Virus record (IMG/VR): IMGVR_UViG_3300023106_000002
Location: 31,560-95,559 of that record
Source: a virus
DNA length: 64,000 bases
Reading direction: 5' to 3' (one strand)
Numbering within the stretch: the first letter of the stretch is position 1; each line of letters begins with the position of its first letter. Below, piece after piece: positions 18,419 to 64,000 of the stretch. The notes under the pieces were generated by a model that saw nothing but the letters and a program-made list of their open reading frames with translations, was not told the DNA's origin and searched no databases. The position numbers and the translations under genes were made by a program.

Positions 18419-19525
18419 TTATTCAGTTGGTGCGAACATGTCCGCTTTAAGTGGTGGAAATGATTGATAGTTCTCGAAGATAAAATCTTCATGTGTCAAT
18501 CTTGATATGAATTCATCAAAGGTTTGTCTACCTTCTTTGTATTCTTTTAAGTGTTCAAGGTAATGTTCTGAGAAAGATAATTGACATCCTGAAAAAGCAT
18601 GTGGATTATTACTCAACTGTTCTCTTACAACTTCAATGTGAGGTTGATAAAAGTGAACATTTGATAAATCTCCTATAATGCTCATAGGTATCATATCAAC
18701 TATACTACCTATGATATAAGATTGTAATGCATAACTTGCAATGTTAAAAGGAAGACCTAAAAAAGTATCAACTGAACGTTGATGCCATTTAAGTGTGAAA
18801 CCATATAATGGAACATGCACAAGTTCTTCTAACAAAGTAGCTTTTGCTTCTTCATCTTTGTTTTTACCGAAACCTTCTAACCACAAAGCATTCAAATACT
18901 CTTGGTCTTTACCTGAATATTCAATACGTTGTGAATAAGACAATGGTCTTGGTAATACTTCAAATGCCCAATGACAAGGAGGCAAAGCTGTTTGATCAAG
19001 TTCTGATGGATTCCAAGCAGTTACAATGTGTCTTCTTGAAATAGGATTTGATTTGCGAAGGTTGTGAAGAAGTTCTATGATTTGATCAACATTAGAAGGT
19101 ATATATCCTATTTTAGTACCTTGAATATTAGTCCAATCTCTCCATTGAACACCATAGTTTCTACCTACATCTCCCCATAGTAAATCATTTTCAAGATCAA
19201 CTTGAAATCCTTTTTCATCCCCCTTATACATAGGATGCTTTTTCTTATGATAAGTCAATGCATCTTTGTTCCATATAGTAACTCCTTTTTTAGCTAAAGA
19301 AGATGCTTTTGTATCTCCTCGAAGAAACCATAACAATTCTTCAACAATTCCTTTAGTAAACATCTTCTTTGTAGTAAGTAAAGGAAATTCTGTCAATGGA
19401 AGTTCCAAGTTAACAGATGTTAACTGTCTACATGGAACATTAGGTCTGTTTTCTGTGGTATATTCATACCCTGTATCAAGTATAGCATTAGCTAATGCAT
19501 GATATTGAACATCTACTTTAGCCAT
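18419..19525 (-). CDS. thyA: Thymidylate synthase (ThyA) with an insertion, 368 aa
   Basis: Makes dTMP from dUMP with methylene-tetrahydrofolate. Visible motifs: RRHIVTAWNP (arginines near 164-165, phosphate binding), LPPCHWAFEV with catalytic Cys184, RSVDTFLGLPFNIASYAL with the dUMP-selective Asn261 (Asp would suggest a dCMP hydroxymethylase), and a C-terminal NYQSFPPLKADMF. At 368 residues it is about 100 longer than typical bacterial ThyA; much of the excess is a 40-50 residue insertion between the catalytic loop and the RSVD motif (about 194-240). It lies in a nucleotide-metabolism run with the MazG-like and dNMP kinase genes. Confidence 0.93.
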   Translation of the reverse strand: MAKVDVQYHALANAILDTGYEYTTENRPNVPCRQLTSVNLELPLTEFPLLTTKKMFTKGIVEELLWFLRGDTKASSLAKKGVTIWNKDALTYHKKKHPMYKGDEKGFQVDLENDLLWGDVGRNYGVQWRDWTNIQGTKIGYIPSNVDQIIELLHNLRKSNPISRRHIVTAWNPSELDQTALPPCHWAFEVLPRPLSYSQRIEYSGKDQEYLNALWLEGFGKNKDEEAKATLLEELVHVPLYGFTLKWHQRSVDTFLGLPFNIASYALQSYIIGSIVDMIPMSIIGDLSNVHFYQPHIEVVREQLSNNPHAFSGCQLSFSEHYLEHLKEYKEGRQTFDEFISRLTHEDFIFENYQSFPPLKADMFAPTE

Positions 19526-27088: not shown

Positions 27089-27775
27089 TTATATCTCATT
27101 GTTAGTAAGACTTAACGGGATGAAGAATTCATAATAGAAAGGTACATCTCTATCTTTACTTCTTTCATATATGTTAGTCATGTGGTTAGTAAAAAACGCT
27201 GTCATAAGTGTAGCAATCATTGCTGCACTATGTGATGTTTGTTTCATGGTACATGGTGCATCTTGCACTTCTCCATCATCAAACAAGTTCTCTTCATATT
27301 GTGAAATAAGATCAGGAGTAACGCAAAAAATCTGCAATTGCTCCATCTCAAGTCTTCCATCAATAAAGATTGGTGTAACTGGACAATTAGGTACAGACCT
27401 TTTCCACACTTCAAATAAATCTTTCCTCGCTTTCATGTTATCGAAAGCGGAAAACATGAAGTGATGTGTTGGAGAATCTATTGTAATAGGTCGAATATCA
27501 GTATTGATACTCTTGTTATTAAACTCCATAATGACATCTTGTAAAGCTTGTACCTTAAACTTACCAATATCACTATGTCTGAATAACTGACCTCCTAAAT
27601 TGTGCTCTTCGATTCTGTCAAAATCGAATATGTTTATATCGAAACCAGCACGAGTAAGGAAGATGGCTAACCAACTTCCTATACCTCCTGCTCCTCCAAT
27701 CATAACTGTTTCATCTTCTTTAGGAAACCACGGGGCATCCTTGAATCTATTAAACTGTTGTAGCATTGTGTTCAA
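27089..27775 (-). CDS. E1/ThiF-like adenylating enzyme of PRTRC-type cassette, 228 aa
   Basis: Rossmann-type adenylation domain: MIGGAGGIGSWLAIFL (nucleotide loop, residues 26-40), DFDRIEEHNLGGQLF (the DxDxVxxxNLxRQ element, 51-65, with Gly in place of Arg), GKFKVQAL (71-78), and AFDNMKARKDLF (110-121). DAPCTMKQT has Cys175 at the position of the PSC motif seen in PRTRC ThiF proteins, a candidate thioester cysteine. No CxxC zinc pair is seen and there is no ubiquitin-fold domain. By family it would adenylate the C terminus of a ubiquitin-like protein. The start overlaps the JAMM gene stop by 26 bases. Confidence 0.85.
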   Translation of the reverse strand: MNTMLQQFNRFKDAPWFPKEDETVMIGGAGGIGSWLAIFLTRAGFDINIFDFDRIEEHNLGGQLFRHSDIGKFKVQALQDVIMEFNNKSINTDIRPITIDSPTHHFMFSAFDNMKARKDLFEVWKRSVPNCPVTPIFIDGRLEMEQLQIFCVTPDLISQYEENLFDDGEVQDAPCTMKQTSHSAAMIATLMTAFFTNHMTNIYERSKDRDVPFYYEFFIPLSLTNNEI

Positions 27776-28865
27776 ATTCTTTAACCATTCCGCGAATTGC
27801 TTGAACAGTAACGTTAATAAATGGGTAATCTGCTACTTTCTCTTCCAAAATATAAGCAGCTTCTTCTGAATCAACGATGAATTCATCATCTGTTGAATCA
27901 GGGAAATGCCTTTCATACACATCTGTGAAATAAGACAATGTTTTCTCAGCTAAATCATAAGCATCTATCTCTAAATCTTCAAGAGTACTTAGAACTGTAT
28001 CTAAATCTTCTTTAGGTTCAAGAGGAACACTAATTTTCATCACTTCTGAAATAAACCTTACAATAGGATCACCCATATCATTTTCTGTTAAATCTTCATA
28101 AGTAGTGAATGGAAGATTGCTGATTAAAGCATCTACCATCTTACTTCTTTCTGAAAGTTTCGATTTGTCAAGAGGAGTTTTCATCTTCTCAACAATTTTC
28201 TTCTGTTCAGGTTTCAACTGTATAACAGGTTTCTGATATGCAGGTAAAGCTTTAACAGGTTCAGGTTTTGGAGTAGGTTTAGGTTTCATAATCTCAGCTA
28301 CTGCTGAAGAGAAATCTGAAGGTACTGAGTAACGTTCTTCAGGAACAATAACATCGCATTGATAAACAAATACTTTGTTTTCTTCATAGTTAAGGTCAGT
28401 AACAAAAGAGTTATAAGACTTACCATTTTCATCTAAAGAAGTATATGGTACTTTGCCAAAGTTTTTAGCAATCTTTGCTGTGAATCCAATCTTTGCTTCA
28501 AAGTCCATGTAATTGTTTACAATCAATGAAACGTAGTAATTGTGATTTGGTGCATTTTCGATTAATTCATCTTGATCTACACCTGAAAAGAAAACTCTCA
28601 TGCAATGATGTGAATGAATATGACCAACTGACCAATCCATTCGTTCTTCATTTTCCATCAAGTAATCAGTAAACCTATCATCAAGAGTGTATTCAGTATA
28701 TCCTGCATTCCCCATATCTAATGGTAAAATATCTTGCAGGATAATCTTCATTGTTTCAGGTTTCTTGATAGAACCTTCAACTGTGTAAAAAAGTGGACCA
28801 GACCATTCAACAGTTCTTATGTTAGAACACAAGTGCTTCACTTTGTTCAGGAACGCTGTTGACAT
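27750..28865 (-). CDS. JAMM/MPN-family isopeptidase-like protein (PRTRC A-like), 371 aa
   Basis: With the start at 28865 (MSTAFLNKVKHL) the N-terminal domain carries EWSG (Glu20) and GHIHSHHCMRVFFSGVDQDE, an exact HxH-x7-S-x2-D JAMM motif (His84, His86, Ser94, Asp97) of zinc isopeptidases that process or remove ubiquitin-like proteins. After about residue 205 comes a proline/lysine linker (PKPTPKPEPVK) and an acidic helical C-terminal region. A start at 28949 would overlap the upstream gene by 128 bases; 28865 or 28871 overlaps by under 50 and begins the domain correctly. Sits between the E2-like and E1-like genes. Confidence 0.85.
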   Translation of the reverse strand: MSTAFLNKVKHLCSNIRTVEWSGPLFYTVEGSIKKPETMKIILQDILPLDMGNAGYTEYTLDDRFTDYLMENEERMDWSVGHIHSHHCMRVFFSGVDQDELIENAPNHNYYVSLIVNNYMDFEAKIGFTAKIAKNFGKVPYTSLDENGKSYNSFVTDLNYEENKVFVYQCDVIVPEERYSVPSDFSSAVAEIMKPKPTPKPEPVKALPAYQKPVIQLKPEQKKIVEKMKTPLDKSKLSERSKMVDALISNLPFTTYEDLTENDMGDPIVRFISEVMKISVPLEPKEDLDTVLSTLEDLEIDAYDLAEKTLSYFTDVYERHFPDSTDDEFIVDSEEAAYILEEKVADYPFINVTVQAIRGMVKEFEHNATTV

Positions 28866-30072
28866 TATCATTGCTATTTGACAATGCGTAAATTCCTGCA
28901 CCATTGACGCAAGTTGCATAGAGGTGTATTTCGAGTTGTTCAGAGACATAATTTAAAAATTTAGGATAAACAATACATTCCTGAAGGTTAACCTCTTCAG
29001 TAGGTTGGAGTTCTGTGATAGTGAAATAAATTCTCTTACCACTAATATAAACAAATGGAAGTTCTCCATTTATCATCATTTTATTAAGTGTTTCTTTTGG
29101 ATTGAATTGAGCACCTTGACTGATTTTGTAGAAACTTCTATCACTACCTTGTTTACATAGTACTTGTTCAGAATGATCTTTCAGATAATCTATATAAAGG
29201 TTTTTTATACCTTCTTTAAAGAATTCATCATGTTTGATTTTAAATCTTTCTTCACTATAAACAAAGTTTGCAGGAATTGGCATACCTTCACTTCTCATCA
29301 TTGCAAATAAGTCATCAAACCTATGCTGCATTCTGTCTTCACTCATGTTGAATTTTCCTCCTGCTGCTTGAAGTACAATGTTTCTCATGTATCTAAAAGG
29401 TCTGCCTTCTTCACTCTCCCATCTAACATAGTTATCAAGAGTCATGAATAAAAGTTCAAACTTTTGAATATCAAATGGATCTGCATTGATTTCAATAGTA
29501 AGTTCACTCATATCTTCTGAACCAAGGCAGAATTCTCTCAATTTAAAGATTTCTTCTCTCTTGTCCCATGCTGAATAAGTAGTGTTTTCAAATTCTAAGC
29601 CAGGTAAGTGACTATGTAAGTAACCATTTGACCACTCATCATGTTTGACAGTTAATCGAGTTCCTTTCATAGTACTCAAATTAATACCTGTAATATCATA
29701 ACTCAAGTCAAAATATACAAGTAAATTTTCAAGTTCTCTTTCATTACTAGTACTATTAGTGATTGTAATTTTATCATAGTTGATAATAATAGCAGGACAA
29801 TAAAGTTTTCTATCTGTAACAGTCATGTGAATATCCCAATTATCACCATAATGATTATTCATCAAAGTTATCAATTGACAAAGTTGTTCATAATAAACTG
29901 TTGCATCATCTCCTATAACTTTAGTAAATCCACGAGTACTGGTAGCAATTTTACCTTTATCAAACAACCTCTTTAACCATTTTGGATCTTTAGTAAGAGC
30001 CATTTGTCTAGCATTGTTAATGAATTGCTGTCTCCTGCTAGTAGAGTCATGCATACTATTGCTTAAATTCAT
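28822..30072 (-). CDS. PRTRC B-like protein, candidate E2-like component, 416 aa
   Basis: It lies where PRTRC cassettes carry protein B, directly before the JAMM and ThiF genes. The central part reads GYLHSHLPGLEF (His153, His155) and, 25 residues on, REFCLGSEDM (Cys182). This resembles the HxN/P...G..CL arrangement of E2 conjugating folds and the C-x-G-S segment of PRTRC B proteins. I infer a possible E2-like role with Cys182 as the acceptor; the remainder (about 225-416) is helical then beta and unrecognised. Separated from the ubiquitin-like gene by a terminator-type hairpin. Confidence 0.6.
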   Translation of the reverse strand: MNLSNSMHDSTSRRQQFINNARQMALTKDPKWLKRLFDKGKIATSTRGFTKVIGDDATVYYEQLCQLITLMNNHYGDNWDIHMTVTDRKLYCPAIIINYDKITITNSTSNERELENLLVYFDLSYDITGINLSTMKGTRLTVKHDEWSNGYLHSHLPGLEFENTTYSAWDKREEIFKLREFCLGSEDMSELTIEINADPFDIQKFELLFMTLDNYVRWESEEGRPFRYMRNIVLQAAGGKFNMSEDRMQHRFDDLFAMMRSEGMPIPANFVYSEERFKIKHDEFFKEGIKNLYIDYLKDHSEQVLCKQGSDRSFYKISQGAQFNPKETLNKMMINGELPFVYISGKRIYFTITELQPTEEVNLQECIVYPKFLNYVSEQLEIHLYATCVNGAGIYALSNSNDNVNSVPEQSEALVF

Positions 30073-30088
30073 ATATTTAAAAAAATTA

Positions 30089-30118
30089 AAGAGTTCCGCA
30101 TATAAATGCAGAACTCTT
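30089..30118 (-). terminator. Hairpin terminator/attenuator between Ubl gene and its enzymes
   Basis: An 8-bp outer stem (30089-30096 with 30111-30118, AAGAGTTC/GAACTCTT) with an inner GCAT/ATGC pair, followed on the minus strand by a T-rich run (TTTAATTTTTTT). Lies after the ubiquitin-like gene stop and before the E2-like gene ATG, so it should lower transcription of the enzymes relative to the modifier. Confidence 0.75.
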
Positions 30119-30128
30119 ATTAAACTTC

Positions 30129-30737
30129 TTAGTTTCTAAAGCCTCTTTCCATGTCAGCAGCTTCTTTGGCTAACCTTTTGGTTTCTGCTTCATCTGTTTC
30201 CGCTGCAATATCATCTGCACCTTTTTTTGATGCAGGTTTAGTTGAAGCTTTTGGCGCAGGAGCAACTTTAGTAGCTGTTTTCGCAGGAGTTGCTTTTTTA
30301 GCTGCTGTTGTTTTAGCAGCAGCTTTAGCAGGTGCTTTCTTTCCTTTAAAAGATTGCACTTTACCACGCAACTCTTCAATTTTCATTGAAGAGTAACCAG
30401 TATAATGCTCTTTTGCATTGTCAAATGCAGCAATGTCTTCTTTGACAAGTGCTTTCAAACCTTTTAAATCGGCTCCTGCTCCACGTTTTGCAGCCATACC
30501 TGATTTGGTTTTCTTTGGTCGCATAAATACAGTAAAAGGTTCTTCAGGTAAAGCAGCTTCTACATGGACAAGGTCAAGTTTTGACCCTCCAATAGTTGAA
30601 TGTAATTGATCAACTTCGTAACCTTGTGCTTTCAACAGCGGGATAAGTCCTCCCCATGTTGTTGCATCAGATTCGATCTTCGCTTTCTTGTTACCTCTTG
30701 TTGAATAAACTGTAATTGTTCTTTTTGTTGCGCTCAT
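30129..30737 (-). CDS. Ubiquitin-like beta-grasp protein with histone H1-like tail, 202 aa
   Basis: Residues 5-73 (RTITVYSTRGNKKAKIE...TWGGLIPLLKAQGY...FTVFMRPKK) have the strand-strand-helix-strands order of a ubiquitin-like beta-grasp domain, as in PRTRC protein C. A second helical segment follows (about 88-130), then a Lys/Ala/Pro/Thr-rich tail (about 132-172) like histone H1, and an acidic end terminating in ERGFRN. The gene uses clearly more G/C than neighbours, consistent with high expression, and has its own terminator. Possible modifier of the E1/E2-like/JAMM set; with no C-terminal Gly, processing after an internal Gly (for example Gly80 in KKTKSG) would be needed. Confidence 0.65.
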   Translation of the reverse strand: MSATKRTITVYSTRGNKKAKIESDATTWGGLIPLLKAQGYEVDQLHSTIGGSKLDLVHVEAALPEEPFTVFMRPKKTKSGMAAKRGAGADLKGLKALVKEDIAAFDNAKEHYTGYSSMKIEELRGKVQSFKGKKAPAKAAAKTTAAKKATPAKTATKVAPAPKASTKPASKKGADDIAAETDEAETKRLAKEAADMERGFRN

Positions 30738-30759: not shown

Positions 30760-31494
30760 TTACCAATTAATTGTGTTTAGAGACAACTGCTCTAAAAGTT
30801 TGTTAACAAAATAAAAATGATTGCATCCAAAAAACCCTGCATTTGATGAGTATGCTTCTGCTGCGGGATGTGCTGCTGTCAATACATAGTTCTTTAATGG
30901 GTCAATAGGTATCTGCTCAATTGTCTGTTTTGTATATCCTTTAACTCGGATTATCGATTTTGCTGACATATATGTTGCATAGTCCTGTGCTTTTCTCCCC
31001 CAAAGTAACCATATACAAGGATGTTGTTGACTAATGTAGTAAACTACTCGCTTAGTAAATTCATCCCAGTATCGTAAATGACTGCCTGCTCTACCCGATT
31101 CAACAGTTAGCGCAGTATTAAGTAAAAATACTCCTTGTTCTTCCCAATGCTCCAAAGTCTGCCAAGTACCAGCAAAGAATGATGGTGGAGGTGTATGCTC
31201 GAAATTGAGCAAAAGTTCTTTTCTAATATTCGCAAGCGAAGCAGGAACTTTATTACCTTCATTGACAGCAAATGCTAATCCATTAGCATAGTTTGGTATA
31301 GGGTAAGGGTCTTGTCCAAGTATCACTACTTTGATAGAACTTAATGGTTGTCTGAATACTCGAAAAATGTTTTGTTTTTGTGGATACGCTGAAATGTTAG
31401 GAAGTACTTCTAAATTCAGCTTCAATAGTTTCCCATGATGAAGTTCTCCAAGAAGAGGCTTCCATGATTCATGGATAATGTCAGTAGGATTCAT
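30760..31494 (-). CDS. ung: Uracil-DNA glycosylase (UDG family 1), 244 aa
   Basis: VVILGQDPYPIPNYANGLAF (residues 56-75) holds the catalytic GQDPY motif with its Asp (Pro replaces the usual His after Tyr); LLNTALTVESGRAGSH matches motif 3 and TAAHPAAEAY matches the HPSPLS leucine-loop region with its His. It removes uracil from DNA; together with ThyA and MazG it would keep dU out of the genome. Its ATG overlaps the primase stop by four bases. Confidence 0.92.
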   Translation of the reverse strand: MNPTDIIHESWKPLLGELHHGKLLKLNLEVLPNISAYPQKQNIFRVFRQPLSSIKVVILGQDPYPIPNYANGLAFAVNEGNKVPASLANIRKELLLNFEHTPPPSFFAGTWQTLEHWEEQGVFLLNTALTVESGRAGSHLRYWDEFTKRVVYYISQQHPCIWLLWGRKAQDYATYMSAKSIIRVKGYTKQTIEQIPIDPLKNYVLTAAHPAAEAYSSNAGFFGCNHFYFVNKLLEQLSLNTINW

Positions 31495-32525
31495 GTGTTT
31501 TGATTTAGGAATTGTTGTAATACAGGTTGTCCTTTCTTTAAGTATAAATCTGATGGATCACTTATTCCCTTAGGATTAAGTTCTTCAGGCAACCATAAAG
31601 ATGTTGCCTTATCACGAAAGTGATTGTTTATAATAGGAACAAGTTTTTCAGAAGATGCGATACCTTGAGTATCATTATCATACCATACAATGACTTTACG
31701 AAAGCCTTTCACTATATTCATAAGTAAAGCTTCTGAAGGAATCATCCCTTCATTCTGAAGGTAGATTGCATACTTTCCATGATTAGTAAGTACTCTCCAA
31801 TCTTTGTATGATTTAGTAATGATTAGCTGATGACCAAATGGTGGTAACAAATGTAATCCGCCTATGTCATCTTTACGACATGTTGTGACGAATCTTCCCT
31901 TACCTTTTCGATGCGGAAAATAAATCTTTTTCCTCCCATCTTCATAATTTGTATCAGCATACGCAATATCATATACTCTGCTAGCTGTGTTCCCGTTCTT
32001 TCCATCTACTATATAGAACTTACTTACTGCAAATTGCTTATCATCAATTAAGTTCTGTTTACTTATACCATAACTTCTCCAAAACTTAGCATCTTGGAAT
32101 GTAAATGCTCGTGAATCAAAGTTAAGTGTGGCATACTTTCTTTCAATAGACTCTAACTTAAAAACTCCCTTAGTCTTTATCTTGTTCTTGATAAGTCTCT
32201 CGTAGACAAATTCAAGGGTTTGATAAAAATTAGGGAGTTTAAAGTAAAGTTTAACAGCATCAAAGCAGTCAAGTGGCTTATTATGTAATTGCTTACTTCC
32301 GTAATCAACAAACCTTAGCTTACCTGTAAAAGATGTAGTTCTTTCAAACCAACATCCTGCTCTGTTATCTGTTCTAAAAGGTGATGTAACGTAAACATAT
32401 TCAACTGGTTGATAACCAAACACCAATTCAAAAATCTCTTCTTGCGTAATGTACGCTAAGATTGCTTCCTGACTGATAAAACCTGTTCTATCTTGTGAAT
32501 CATCTTCGTATAGATTATGCTTCAT
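31491..32525 (-). CDS. DnaG-type primase with TOPRIM domain, 344 aa
   Basis: The N-terminal region (SPFRTDNRAGCWFE...LRFVDYGS...DCFDAVKLYF, about residues 48-95) follows the CHC2 zinc-domain pattern of DnaG but with most cysteines lost. The C-terminal part has an EGMIPSEALLMN segment and KVIVWYDNDTQG (about 272-283), the TOPRIM Glu and DxD. It would prime lagging strands next to the DnaB-like helicase. Shorter than bacterial DnaG (about 600 aa) because the helicase-binding domain is absent. Confidence 0.8.
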   Translation of the reverse strand: MKHNLYEDDSQDRTGFISQEAILAYITQEEIFELVFGYQPVEYVYVTSPFRTDNRAGCWFERTTSFTGKLRFVDYGSKQLHNKPLDCFDAVKLYFKLPNFYQTLEFVYERLIKNKIKTKGVFKLESIERKYATLNFDSRAFTFQDAKFWRSYGISKQNLIDDKQFAVSKFYIVDGKNGNTASRVYDIAYADTNYEDGRKKIYFPHRKGKGRFVTTCRKDDIGGLHLLPPFGHQLIITKSYKDWRVLTNHGKYAIYLQNEGMIPSEALLMNIVKGFRKVIVWYDNDTQGIASSEKLVPIINNHFRDKATSLWLPEELNPKGISDPSDLYLKKGQPVLQQFLNQNT

Positions 32526-46925: not shown

Positions 46926-47126
46926 TGATAGCATCATCTTCGTGAAGGCTTCTTCAAGTGATGCATATAGGTCTGTATCTTTACCAATAGGTAAATCAGT
47001 TGGTGAAAACCATTTCACTTGTACTGTAATATCATGTCTCTTAACTTCAACACGATGATAGTCTTTACCATCGTGTTTGACTAAGTGATTAGATATTTTC
47101 TTGCTGGTTGAGTTTAATAACTCCAT
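46923..47126 (-). CDS. Hypothetical protein, 67 aa
   Basis: Not recognised; beta-rich with a YHRVEVKRHDITVQVKWFS segment and a helical end (LYASLEEAFTKMM). Overlaps the 112-aa gene upstream by 38 bases. Last gene of the metabolic-cluster transcript before the terminator. Confidence 0.55.
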   Translation of the reverse strand: MELLNSTSKKISNHLVKHDGKDYHRVEVKRHDITVQVKWFSPTDLPIGKDTDLYASLEEAFTKMMLS

Positions 47127-47427
47127 TTTCTACGTCTTTAAAGTAAAACTTAATTTCACATTTCTTGATCTTACCATTGTCATAGTAAGTACACTTGTAA
47201 GGTTGTTGTACAACTTCTTGATGTTCTCTGTCAGCGAATTCAATATTATTGATTTGAGTAAATAAAGATGCTAATGCCATTTCAGCATGACTTTGAATGT
47301 CATTACCTAATGTAATCAGCATTTCTTCACTAATATCAACTTCCATTGTAGCTTTAAATGATGTACTGAGAACAGTACCATCTTCATTGTATCGAATTGT
47401 AGCGATACCAATTTCTTTCTTTTCCAT
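47089..47427 (-). CDS. Hypothetical protein, 112 aa
   Basis: Not recognised. Alpha/beta, acidic, with YKCTYYDNGKIKKCEIKFYF in the C-terminal half. Ten bases after the methyltransferase gene and probably co-transcribed with it. Confidence 0.55.
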   Translation of the reverse strand: MEKKEIGIATIRYNEDGTVLSTSFKATMEVDISEEMLITLGNDIQSHAEMALASLFTQINNIEFADREHQEVVQQPYKCTYYDNGKIKKCEIKFYFKDVENGVIKLNQQENI

Positions 47428-47436
47428 GATTTTATG

Positions 47437-48180
47437 TTATAATACTCGATACACCATAATCTGTCTGTATCTGTAAACGGGTTTAAATTTGTCGTTGAGT
47501 TCCATGTAATGTCCTATACTTCCTGCTTGATTGTAGAAAATATACTGTCCTTTATGTACAGCTTTACTTAATTGTTCTACAAATAGCTTAGCAAGTTCTT
47601 GTCTTGCCATAGGTTCATACATAAATAATGCATCATAACCCTTCAGGTCATCTTGTTGAATTTTCAACAGATCTTTCAATTTAAGATTAAATGTGCCAGC
47701 ATATTCTGCAATAGATGTGAGAAAGCCTAGTTTAGCATCTTTAACGAAAACTTCTTCATTATCAATACCATCTAATGCAACTGAATATTTATTAAGAAAA
47801 TCAAATCGTTTATCACTTGAAACTACTTGAATAACTTTTCTAACAGCTAACAAGAAAAATCCTGCTCCTGCTCCCATATCTAACATCTTCTTGATTTTAA
47901 AATGTTCAATAAGTTCCACTATGATGTAACTCATTTCAAAGTGTGTTGGGATATAACCCCATTCACTTCCATCTTCTCCCTTTGGTCTACCAACTACATT
48001 ATTGTAATCAGAAGCGTATTTGTTACGAGTAAAGAAGTCATATACACCTTTCATAGCATGTATTTTCTCTGCTATATTAAACATGCTCTTCTTTTGAGTA
48101 TCGTTCAATTCAACAACAGGTTTTAGTGCTTTAAGTTTATCTCTAAAAGTTTTTCTTGGTTTTTTAGTTAATGTTTCCAT
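47437..48180 (-). CDS. SAM-dependent class I methyltransferase, 247 aa
   Basis: Motif I MLDMGAGAGFFLLAV (about residues 98-112) is the SAM-binding glycine loop; an acidic residue follows in the VALDGIDNEE segment (motif II) and YDALFMYEPMARQELAKLF corresponds to motif IV. The N-terminal 90 residues are helical with a YIPTHFEMSYIIVELIEHF segment before the core. It ends in a VYRYRQIMVYRVL strand. The substrate is unknown: neither a DNA (NPPY/DPPY) nor an rRNA signature is visible. It starts two bases after the isocyanide synthase homologue and so may modify its product. Confidence 0.75.
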   Translation of the reverse strand: METLTKKPRKTFRDKLKALKPVVELNDTQKKSMFNIAEKIHAMKGVYDFFTRNKYASDYNNVVGRPKGEDGSEWGYIPTHFEMSYIIVELIEHFKIKKMLDMGAGAGFFLLAVRKVIQVVSSDKRFDFLNKYSVALDGIDNEEVFVKDAKLGFLTSIAEYAGTFNLKLKDLLKIQQDDLKGYDALFMYEPMARQELAKLFVEQLSKAVHKGQYIFYNQAGSIGHYMELNDKFKPVYRYRQIMVYRVL

Positions 48181-49105: not shown

Positions 49106-49633
49106 TTATTGTGGTTGTCTACATGCTGGGTAAGGACAGTCAACTGATGGTTCATCTTTTACAGCATTTCGACTGTCATATTTTTTAATAGCATCTTCCA
49201 ATCCTTGTAAAGGATTATCTTTAGTAGTATCTTCTTGTTTAACATCAGAATTGATGTTTTCAGGTGCAGTTGCATTCTTAACAGGATGATCAAAAGTAAA
49301 TTGAGCCATTTTCACAGCAACTGCTGATTGAGTTGATTGTTCTCTTCTTTCTTTACGCATGTTTGCAAGAACAGCAAGAAGTTCTATTGCATCATGTGTA
49401 AGAGCAATTGTAGTTCTTGTGATGTTTTTTGGTTCAAAGATTGTTTCGGTAGTTCTACCAATAATCTTTTTCATTCTTCTGCGCATGATGATAATGTAAC
49501 CATCACCTTTTTCTTTGTCCATAAGAGTAATTTCAACTTTGCCTGTTCTACCTTGAATAGCATTATCAAAGTGTCTAACCATAAGAGTTTTACCAATGTT
49601 CGATAACTTTGCATCGTTTTGTTCTGTGTTCAT
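49106..49633 (-). CDS. Hypothetical protein of the isocyanide synthase cluster, 175 aa
   Basis: Not recognised. The first 105 residues are beta-rich and basic (VEITLMDKEKGDGYIIIMRRRMKK, then helix LTHDAIELLAVLANMRKER); the remainder is disordered and acidic, ending in DCPYPACRQPQ. Lies between the cupin and isocyanide synthase genes, with a terminator hairpin separating it from the cupin. Confidence 0.6.
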   Translation of the reverse strand: MNTEQNDAKLSNIGKTLMVRHFDNAIQGRTGKVEITLMDKEKGDGYIIIMRRRMKKIIGRTTETIFEPKNITRTTIALTHDAIELLAVLANMRKERREQSTQSAVAVKMAQFTFDHPVKNATAPENINSDVKQEDTTKDNPLQGLEDAIKKYDSRNAVKDEPSVDCPYPACRQPQ

Positions 49634-49710: not shown

Positions 49711-50715
49711 TTACACTTCAGGAAATACAACAGTACCATCTACGATAGCAATGTTATGAAACTGATGAAATGCTTCTTTAGCATCATCATTTAATTTCAA
49801 TAACGTCAATCCCATTCTTAACGGGAACGTATCAAGTAAATGACTTGCTGTTTCTGATGCTATTACAGCATTGTCTTGTACTCTGAAACCATGTGCTTTC
49901 ATTACTGGTGGACCAGTAACTACAATGTAATGATCTCCATACTCAGGTACATTAGTACTTCTTACAAGTACAACATCACCTTTTTGAAGATACATACCAT
50001 CTTTTGAGTTAATGCGTTTAACATCAAAAGGATTCAATGGAAAATGAGCAACTGTGTAAGCATTGTCTCTTCCATCACGAGTATGCTCAGGTAAATAATG
50101 TAACGATACAGCATTGCCAACTGATACAAAGTTATGTACAAGATTGACTCTTGTTACATCAGGCTTTTGCATTTGATACTCAGATACAAATACACCTTTC
50201 TCTTTGATCTCAGTTAATACTGGTCTTACAATGCGATGTTCAAGGTCAACAATACGATAAGTATTTACACGAATGCGTCCTGAAAGAACTTCTTCATGCA
50301 TATAACCATCAGAATGACCATGTACAGGTGATGTAAATCCATCTCCCCATCTCGCAATGACCAATTCTTTTCCTTCTTTCCATGCTGTTTGACCAGCATA
50401 AGAAACTACAGGACTCGGCGCCTCCATTGCAATGATTGTACGATCAAATTCTCCTTTTGCTGGTTCGTTTTCAAGTGTCCAATCATCTTTCTGCAACTGT
50501 TCTGACAAGTGCTGCATAACTTGTTGCGTAACATTAATCTTCTCTTGAAGATATTCATCACCATCTGTAAGTACAGGTAATGATTCAAAGTATTGTTCAT
50601 ATCCTGCTCTGTACATTTTCATGTGTTCAGGTTGTCCAATGTAAGCGATTTTTGCAATGTCTTCTACAGGTGTAGTACTTGCATTAAGATGTGTTGATCT
50701 TTCTAATGTGTCCAT
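49711..50715 (-). CDS. Cupin thiol-dioxygenase-like protein (cysteine dioxygenase fold), 334 aa
   Basis: The core ELVIARWGDGFTSPVHGHSDG (about residues 117-137) with HxH at His132/His134, then EEVLSGRIRVNTYRI, and later HNFVSVGNAVSLHYLPEH with His206 as likely third iron ligand, follow the cupin pattern of cysteine dioxygenases, which oxidise thiols to sulfinates. At 334 residues it is longer than CDO (about 200); about 80 residues precede the core and about 120 follow it. Substrate unknown. It begins the transcript segment leading to the isocyanide synthase homologue. Confidence 0.7.
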   Translation of the reverse strand: MDTLERSTHLNASTTPVEDIAKIAYIGQPEHMKMYRAGYEQYFESLPVLTDGDEYLQEKINVTQQVMQHLSEQLQKDDWTLENEPAKGEFDRTIIAMEAPSPVVSYAGQTAWKEGKELVIARWGDGFTSPVHGHSDGYMHEEVLSGRIRVNTYRIVDLEHRIVRPVLTEIKEKGVFVSEYQMQKPDVTRVNLVHNFVSVGNAVSLHYLPEHTRDGRDNAYTVAHFPLNPFDVKRINSKDGMYLQKGDVVLVRSTNVPEYGDHYIVVTGPPVMKAHGFRVQDNAVIASETASHLLDTFPLRMGLTLLKLNDDAKEAFHQFHNIAIVDGTVVFPEV

Positions 50716-62823: not shown

Positions 62824-63405
62824 ATGGCAATACTATTTATAGTTGAAGGAAGAATAGTTAAACCTAATGTTGAAACATTACTTGTATCTCCTTTTAAAGA
62901 AATATGGGAGAGAGATGAAACATCAACAAAAGATCATGCTATTGAAGACTTCTCTTATATGGAGTTTTGTACATCTGAATTAGAGAGCAATCCTTTTTCA
63001 GGTTATAATCTTGATATAAGAGAACGCAAGGTACGTGAGCAAATTATCACGAGAGAGAACTGGGAAGAAGATGAATTTATTCTTGCTGGTAAAGCGAGCA
63101 TTATTCAATTCCAAAAAGAAGCTTCAGCAACTTATACATATTATATGTCAGCTAGAGCCGCTGCTGAAAAGATGCAAGACTTTTTCAATACATTTGATAT
63201 GGGAGCAGTCAACTTTAAAACAGGAGCATTGATTTACAAACCTAAAGAGATAACCTCAGCATTAATTGATACTGCAAAAGTTCTTGAGAACTTGCAAACT
63301 TTAAAGAAGAAAGTTGATGCAGAATTGTTTGATGAAATTAAGAACAAAGCACAGAAAGTGATTAGTCCATTTGCTAATCCATCTAGCTTAACAGATATGA
63401 GATAA
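62824..63405 (+). CDS. Unknown protein upstream of terL, 193 aa
   Basis: Not recognised. Begins MAILFIVEGRIVKPNVETLLVSPF, has a helical C-terminal half (LIDTAKVLENLQTLKKKVDAEL) and ends one base into the terL ATG. The position directly before terL would suit a packaging or virion protein, but no small-terminase motif is visible. Confidence 0.6.
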   Translation: MAILFIVEGRIVKPNVETLLVSPFKEIWERDETSTKDHAIEDFSYMEFCTSELESNPFSGYNLDIRERKVREQIITRENWEEDEFILAGKASIIQFQKEASATYTYYMSARAAAEKMQDFFNTFDMGAVNFKTGALIYKPKEITSALIDTAKVLENLQTLKKKVDAELFDEIKNKAQKVISPFANPSSLTDMR

Positions 63406-64000
63406 TGGATGTAAGAAGTTCAAGTGGAATATGGATTAACTCGCAAGTGTTTCGTGAAGAAGCTTTGAGGTTTATGAAGTATGGTAGTTACTGTGCTGAT
63501 CCTTGGGGAAGTCCTGACTGGTTTAATTACTGGCAAGAACAACGAAGAAGATGTATTGAAGGCTATGCAGTAGGTGGTGCTAGGATAACTGGTGACCATT
63601 ACTTCTACTTGAACTTTTGTCCTATTCAGAAAGTTGAAGATACAAATGCTAAAGTATCACGAAAGGTACTTGAGTTTCCTGATTACTGGGATGGTGATTA
63701 CAATTACTTTTGGGTAAGAGAGATAGCCCGTAATGGTATATTAAGTAATGGACTTGTTACTAATGATCGTGCAGAAGAAATTTATCATTTAGATACTTTA
63801 GAGAAAGCTATAGAACTTAAGAAAATATTTGAGAACCTCCACTTAGAAGTCAAAATTGAACCTGACTATCTACTTGGAGGTTTCAATTTGATTGTAGGTA
63901 AGTCAAGACGTAAAGGATATTCATATAAGAATGCAGCAGTAGCAGTTAAGAACTACTTATGTTATCCTAAATCATTAACTATCTTTGGAGCATACGAAAA
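63405..64000 (+). CDS. terL: Terminase large subunit (crAss-like), 3' partial
   Basis: ATG at 63405; the frame stays open to the right edge (198 codons). The N-terminal domain (WFNYWQEQRRRCIEGYAVGGARITGDHYFYLNFCPI, then LEFPDYWDGDYNYFWVREIARNG) is characteristic of crAss-like terminases, and LIVGKSRRKGYSYKNAAVAV near 63893-63950 is the deviant Walker A of the packaging ATPase. The nuclease domain lies outside the window. This marks the start of the packaging/capsid block. Confidence 0.85.
   Translation, partial: MDVRSSSGIWINSQVFREEALRFMKYGSYCADPWGSPDWFNYWQEQRRRCIEGYAVGGARITGDHYFYLNFCPIQKVEDTNAKVSRKVLEFPDYWDGDYNYFWVREIARNGILSNGLVTNDRAEEIYHLDTLEKAIELKKIFENLHLEVKIEPDYLLGGFNLIVGKSRRKGYSYKNAAVAVKNYLCYPKSLTIFGAYE

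Follow-up and report, generated by a model that had tools for sequence, protein, structure and literature searches.

Why would a phage carry a gene resembling those of cysteine dioxygenases (CDOs) a short distance from a homologue of isonitrile synthases? The question is raised by a minus-strand open reading frame (ORF) in a 64,000-nucleotide stretch of viral DNA (hereafter, the window) taken from a virus record of 95,559 bases (IMG/VR record IMGVR_UViG_3300023106_000002, positions 31,560 to 95,559). The ORF starts with ATG and encodes 334 aa that include WGDGFTSPVHGH, the WGxGxxSPVHxH core that an earlier note on this DNA likened to thiol dioxygenases, with an SLH further on. That note also considered such a gene rare cargo for a phage, and no match for it was found in INPHARED.

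A 127-base direct repeat occurs at both ends of the record, which is what a complete circular assembly should show, and the coding sequence of the terminase large subunit runs across these ends (window positions 63405–64000 plus the start of the record). The phage encodes terminase, portal, and major head proteins. Phages of Flavobacterium psychrophilum such as FpV4 show ~73% nucleotide identity across 10% of the first 25 kb, and the host is probably a flavobacterium. The cupin gene and the replication genes lie on the minus strand, and the structural genes on the opposite strand. By eye only, ORFs at 18419–19525 and 30760–31494 (minus) resemble thymidylate synthase and uracil-DNA glycosylase, and neighboring ORFs at 27089–30737 (minus) resemble a PRTRC-type or ubiquitin-like conjugation set, comprising a ThiF/E1-like protein (27089–27775), a JAB/MPN-type protein with an HSHH...S..D stretch (27750–28949), a 416-aa protein (28822–30072), and a possible ubiquitin-like protein (30129–30737).

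We assessed the relationship of the ORF product to CDOs with several searches. The Pfam model CDO_I matched residues 116–209 at E = 6.2e-5 with 23.0 bits, a score equal to the gathering cut-off of 23 (23.9 bits and E = 1.3e-6 when the open frame was scored in its genome), and it matched two of the four phage homologues described below, with E values up to 1. A profile of the four homologues, searched against all PDB sequences, returned cysteine dioxygenases in its top 20 places, the best at E = 0.0038. When a hidden Markov model (HMM) of eight bacterial CDOs was run against 1,309 ORFs and reversed decoys, the phage homologue from contig G005 ranked first (E = 1.5e-4), and in the reciprocal search with the phage profile the two best-ranked sequences were Vibrio CDOs (E = 4e-4 and 9e-3). 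Although each test is modest, the Pfam, PDB-profile, and reciprocal HMM results together indicate remote homology and not chance similarity, and the phage cupin very likely belongs to the CDO superfamily, as the earlier note had proposed. The protein had no other significant match to Pfam, PHROG, or NCBIfam models. The PCO/ADO-type cysteamine dioxygenase family was set aside, as one homologue matches it, at E = 0.17.

Structure prediction was less informative. AlphaFold, run on four sequences, gave the cupin protein a mean pLDDT of 63, with values of 39–58 around most of the iron site, and Foldseek searches of PDB and BFVD with this weak model returned nothing significant. The top VIA-align row for the same low-confidence model was mercaptosuccinate dioxygenase 8vni (Z 3.8, rmsd 3.6, 91 aligned positions within residues 36–207). 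The structure searches gave no significant match to a capsid or tail protein, which the earlier note had named as evidence against its reading. The terminal extensions that it had pointed out are real, about 88 aa at the N-terminus and about 109 aa at the C-terminus, the latter forming a domain of its own (hereafter, CTD). Between them lie cupin cores that are 28–54% identical among the four phage homologues, the copy of contig G001 being the most diverged (28–31% identity to the others).

In a sequence alignment, H132, H134, and H194 line up with the iron ligands of the eight bacterial CDOs (Table 1). The earlier note had taken the HGH and the later SLH as the hallmarks of the site; both motifs are present, but the predicted third ligand is H194, and the SLH histidine, H206, belongs to the second-sphere Ser-His-Tyr motif. 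R92 sits near the right strand, before the first long strand, at approximately the position of the arginine that binds the substrate carboxylate, in a part of the alignment that crosses a loop of variable length. Of the Ser-His-Tyr motif, all four phage homologues keep Ser or Thr and the His, with a His-to-His spacing as in a Streptomyces CDO, and have Leu or Val in place of the Tyr (Leu208 in the window protein). The Tyr follows SLH in all eight bacterial CDOs, while the phage homologues have an aromatic residue one position earlier. This motif is common to characterized thiol dioxygenases, where it tunes the reaction rate and is not strictly required (PMC8050391). The loss of its Tyr means that catalysis by the phage cupin could be altered or absent. 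Overall, the phage cupins resemble the CDO, 3-mercaptopropionate, and mercaptosuccinate dioxygenases of PF05995 in the HxH plus third His, the [ST]LH, a putative substrate-binding Arg at about the same position, and the G/S/G spacing of the cupin motif. They differ from them in lacking the Tyr and a Cys for a Cys-Tyr cross-link, and the window protein further differs in its two extensions and in a score that only equals the Pfam cut-off.

Table 1 Features of the cupin gene and its neighborhood in the window
Feature	Position	Strand	Remarks
Two-domain protein, 334 aa: N-terminal extension, CDO-like cupin, CTD	49711..50715	-	Homologues in L002, L023, L030
N-terminal extension, residues 1-88	50452..50715	-	Kept only among phage homologues, 23-41% identity
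CDO-like cupin core, residues 89-212	50080..50451	-	Pfam CDO_I 116-209; PDB profile search; reciprocal HMMs
R92, approximate substrate-carboxylate Arg position of Arg-type thiol dioxygenases	50440..50442	-	Invariant 4/4; position from alignment
HGH (H132, H134), two predicted iron ligands	50314..50322	-	Invariant 4/4
H194 (VH-NF), predicted third iron ligand	50134..50136	-	Invariant 4/4
S204-L205-H206, Ser/Thr-x-His of second-sphere motif	50098..50106	-	H206 invariant 4/4
CTD, residues ~226-334	49711..50040	-	No known family
175-aa ORF between cupin gene and PvcA	49106..49633	-	Window only; no known family
PvcA/DIT1-type isonitrile synthase homologue, 300 aa	48183..49085	-	Pfam DIT1_PvcA 1.9e-58; PDB 9dhm/3e59
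SAM-methyltransferase-like ORF, 247 aa, between PvcA and small gene	47437..48180	-	Window's phage only
Small orphan, 112 aa, third cassette member in 6/6 contigs	47089..47427	-	No family

To place the gene in context, we searched IMG/VR with the synthase and two degenerate DNA motifs and obtained five further contigs: G001 (L002), G002 (L003), G004 (L010), G005 (L011/L023/L032), and G009 (L028/L030). Of the other contigs returned by the degenerate patterns, most had no PvcA and were dropped, and the contig counts are lower bounds because only short motifs were used to scan IMG/VR. All six contigs, including that of the window, carry a three-gene cassette composed of the CTD, with or without the CDO-like domain, a PvcA/DIT1-type synthase, and an orphan protein of ~110 aa. 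In the five other contigs the CTD gene immediately precedes PvcA and the orphan gene immediately follows it. The window cassette has the same order with one extra gene on each side of PvcA; the cupin gene thus lies upstream of the synthase, as the earlier note had it, but with the 175-aa gene in between. The extra gene on the other side matched Pfam Methyltransf_31 weakly, below the cut-off, and NCBIfam weakly, and had no match among INPHARED phages. A model of the small orphan protein (pLDDT 63.5) had no meaningful fold match.

The cassettes are compact: the fusion gene is separated from PvcA by 28 nt in G001, 26 nt in G005, and 17 nt in G009, CTD and PvcA overlap by 4 nt in G002, and PvcA is followed by the small gene after ~7–12 nt in G001, G002, G004, and G009. 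In G005 the cassette straddles the contig ends; joining the ends gives an uninterrupted PvcA ORF whose ATG lies ~26 bases past the cupin-CTD stop, indicating that this genome is circular. The CDO-CTD fusion occurs in four contigs (G001, G005, G009, and the window), and in G002 and G004 a stand-alone CTD (109 and 133 aa in L003 and L010) precedes PvcA, with no cupin found elsewhere in either contig. Synteny with the synthase, suggested earlier as a check, therefore holds in every contig with the fusion, and all four cupin copies found sit in a PvcA cassette. The split between fused and stand-alone forms implies that the CTD always accompanies the synthase and that the CDO-like domain is an optional, physically linked accessory. 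Ahead of the stand-alone CTD of G002, a stretch at L003 5938–6006 aligns weakly to the end of the cupin with an internal stop and is possibly a relic of cupin loss. Close to the cassette of G009 lies a tRNA nucleotidyltransferase gene (L030 3676–5061, minus strand).

DIT1_PvcA, a domain found in all six contigs, matched the window's synthase over its full length (profile positions 3–272 of 273), and the closest solved structures are PvcA and a second isonitrile synthase. Phage PvcA keeps core residues of the bacterial synthases, including K56, D70, D102, R233, H237, W261, and H262. The window's synthase scored 115.6 bits against the L-tyrosine isonitrile synthase equivalog NF045653, for which the cut-off is 600. 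The phage synthases are 45–56% identical among themselves and 22–36% identical to bacterial ones, among them plasmid-borne PvcA genes, and in a tree of 12 synthases a fully supported branch separates the six phage from the six bacterial sequences. Membership in this family does not by itself imply isonitrile formation, because for yeast Dit1, which belongs to this superfamily, the reported product is most likely formyl-tyrosine and not an isonitrile (PMC7345447). No description of a phage isonitrile or isocyanide synthase was found in the literature searched.

We detected no TauD (PvcB-type) oxygenase in the six contigs, some of which may be fragments, with a positive E. coli control. Two Hymenobacter plasmid PvcA genes have a TauD/TfdA oxygenase directly downstream, matching the PvcA-PvcB order, and no CDO, and annotated PvcA neighborhoods of Streptomyces and Burkholderia likewise contained no CDO. 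In Desulfobacterota, a CDO occurs in 1 of 395 genomes, and a search run without a positive control returned neither the CTD nor a phage-type PvcA. The only cupin match in the search of bacterial contigs, in L004 (Desulfocapsaceae), was spurious, being antisense to an NtrC-type regulator gene.

The phages that carry the cassette are otherwise distant from one another. Terminase, portal, and head proteins place the window's phage (G000), G004, and G009 in one lineage, within which identity is only 20–28% across the portal and most of the terminase. The portal of G001 belongs to PHROG 156; in G002 the terminase falls in PHROG 3717 and the portal in PHROG 7376, and none of the G005 proteins tested matched a hallmark. 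When all ORFs of the window's phage were compared with the five other contigs, only the cupin/CTD (32–51%) and PvcA (47–54%) matched in all five. The small protein had BLAST matches in four of them (31–41%), the divergent fifth being recognized by position and alignment, so that the three cassette families are the only proteins recognizably common to all six contigs. These distributions suggest a metabolic cassette moving between phages of at least three lineages: its conservation in phages whose structural genes are unrelated or only very distantly related points to horizontal transfer of the whole unit, strong selection, or both. The two contigs with the CTD alone do not group in the synthase tree (support 82 and 85, in a small sample), a pattern consistent with the cupin having been lost twice independently.

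We propose that the cupin is a three-His non-heme-iron member of the CDO superfamily that, tethered through its CTD to the PvcA-type synthase, oxidizes a product of the synthase pathway, and that the operon moves as a unit. Judged from sequence comparison, this combined reading has close to an even chance of being right. Genes may adjoin in a phage operon without serving a common pathway; most likely, the CDO-like domain would nevertheless contribute an Fe/O2 step to the pathway of the synthase, with bulk thiol oxidation less likely. The synthase would convert the amine of an amino acid, with a sugar phosphate, into an isonitrile (or N-formyl) product. Assisting the synthase, or carrying its substrate, may be the role of the CTD and the small protein. 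The tethered cupin would then bind the product at Fe(II), with R92 holding the carboxylate, and oxidize or decarboxylate it in an O2-dependent reaction, in the role that the Fe/2-oxoglutarate enzyme PvcB has in bacteria. By analogy with cysteine in CDO, an isonitrile amino acid would combine a strong iron ligand with an Arg-bound carboxylate. The cupin step appears to be optional, as two of the six cassettes have no cupin domain. Once released, the product may target the infected host or competitors. We consider it possible, though rather doubtful, that the whole constitutes a mobile isonitrile (or N-formyl) cassette of several phage lineages in which a CDO-type cupin replaces the Fe/2-oxoglutarate enzyme, with an isonitrile in place of a thiol as the iron ligand and with two new accessory families.

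Three other explanations fare worse. The cupin could be a non-catalytic domain with a scaffolding, sensing, or regulatory role, holding a metal or ligand for a complex of CTD, PvcA, and the small protein. The lost second-sphere Tyr, the cupin-free cassettes, and the low identity of the G001 core are in keeping with such a role, but four diverged copies all keep the three iron-ligand His, the His of SLH/TLH, and R92, which would be unusual if metal chemistry had been abandoned, and we regard it as unlikely. Marginally less probable is the suggestion, made in the earlier note, that the enzyme oxidizes host thiols: a genuine thiol dioxygenase would act on host cysteine or another small thiol, supplying sulfinic acid or changing the redox state, and would neighbor PvcA through operon economy. 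The superfamily match, the retained R92 and metal ligands, and the dispensability of Ser-His-Tyr in characterized enzymes are compatible with that activity. Against it stand the replacement of the Tyr in every homologue, the fusion to a CTD that elsewhere stands alone before PvcA, the confinement of all cupin copies to PvcA cassettes, and the two phages whose cassettes do without the CDO domain. Just as improbable is modification of a macromolecule (a protein N-terminus, tRNA, or DNA base) by a PvcA-CTD-small protein complex with the cupin as finishing enzyme, which would accommodate the two constant partners of no known family, the missing TauD, and a weak likeness of the CTD to small beta-barrel (tudor/SH3-like) domains, but these Z values of ~2–3 are at background level, and the PvcA homologues studied use free amino acids (PMC5974471, PMC7345447).

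Several known systems share parts of this arrangement. The PvcA/PvcB and IsnA/IsnB pairs (paerucumarin in P. aeruginosa, rhabduscin, and the indole-isonitrile of hapalindole) likewise place a DIT1_PvcA synthase beside an iron oxygenase gene. The phage synthases differ in forming a separate group, and their cassettes in having a CDO-type cupin instead of TauD and two orphan partners. Yeast DIT1 shares the synthase superfamily, but its partner is the P450 Dit2, with no cupin (PMC7345447 and general knowledge). The Paraburkholderia prophage IPK also has a gene annotated as cysteine dioxygenase, a likeness drawn from its description only; in the passages that describe it, the gene is one of three AMGs and no synthase is mentioned (PMC12446147).

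Conservation of the cassette far exceeds that of the packaging genes in the carrier phages, which suggests that the cassette confers a strong benefit during infection. Two protein families without known relatives, the CTD and the ~110-aa orphan, are now tied to a known enzyme, which makes their function testable. The cassette thus offers a small system in which to ask which molecule these phages make, and whether a thiol-dioxygenase fold may work on a ligand that is not a thiol.
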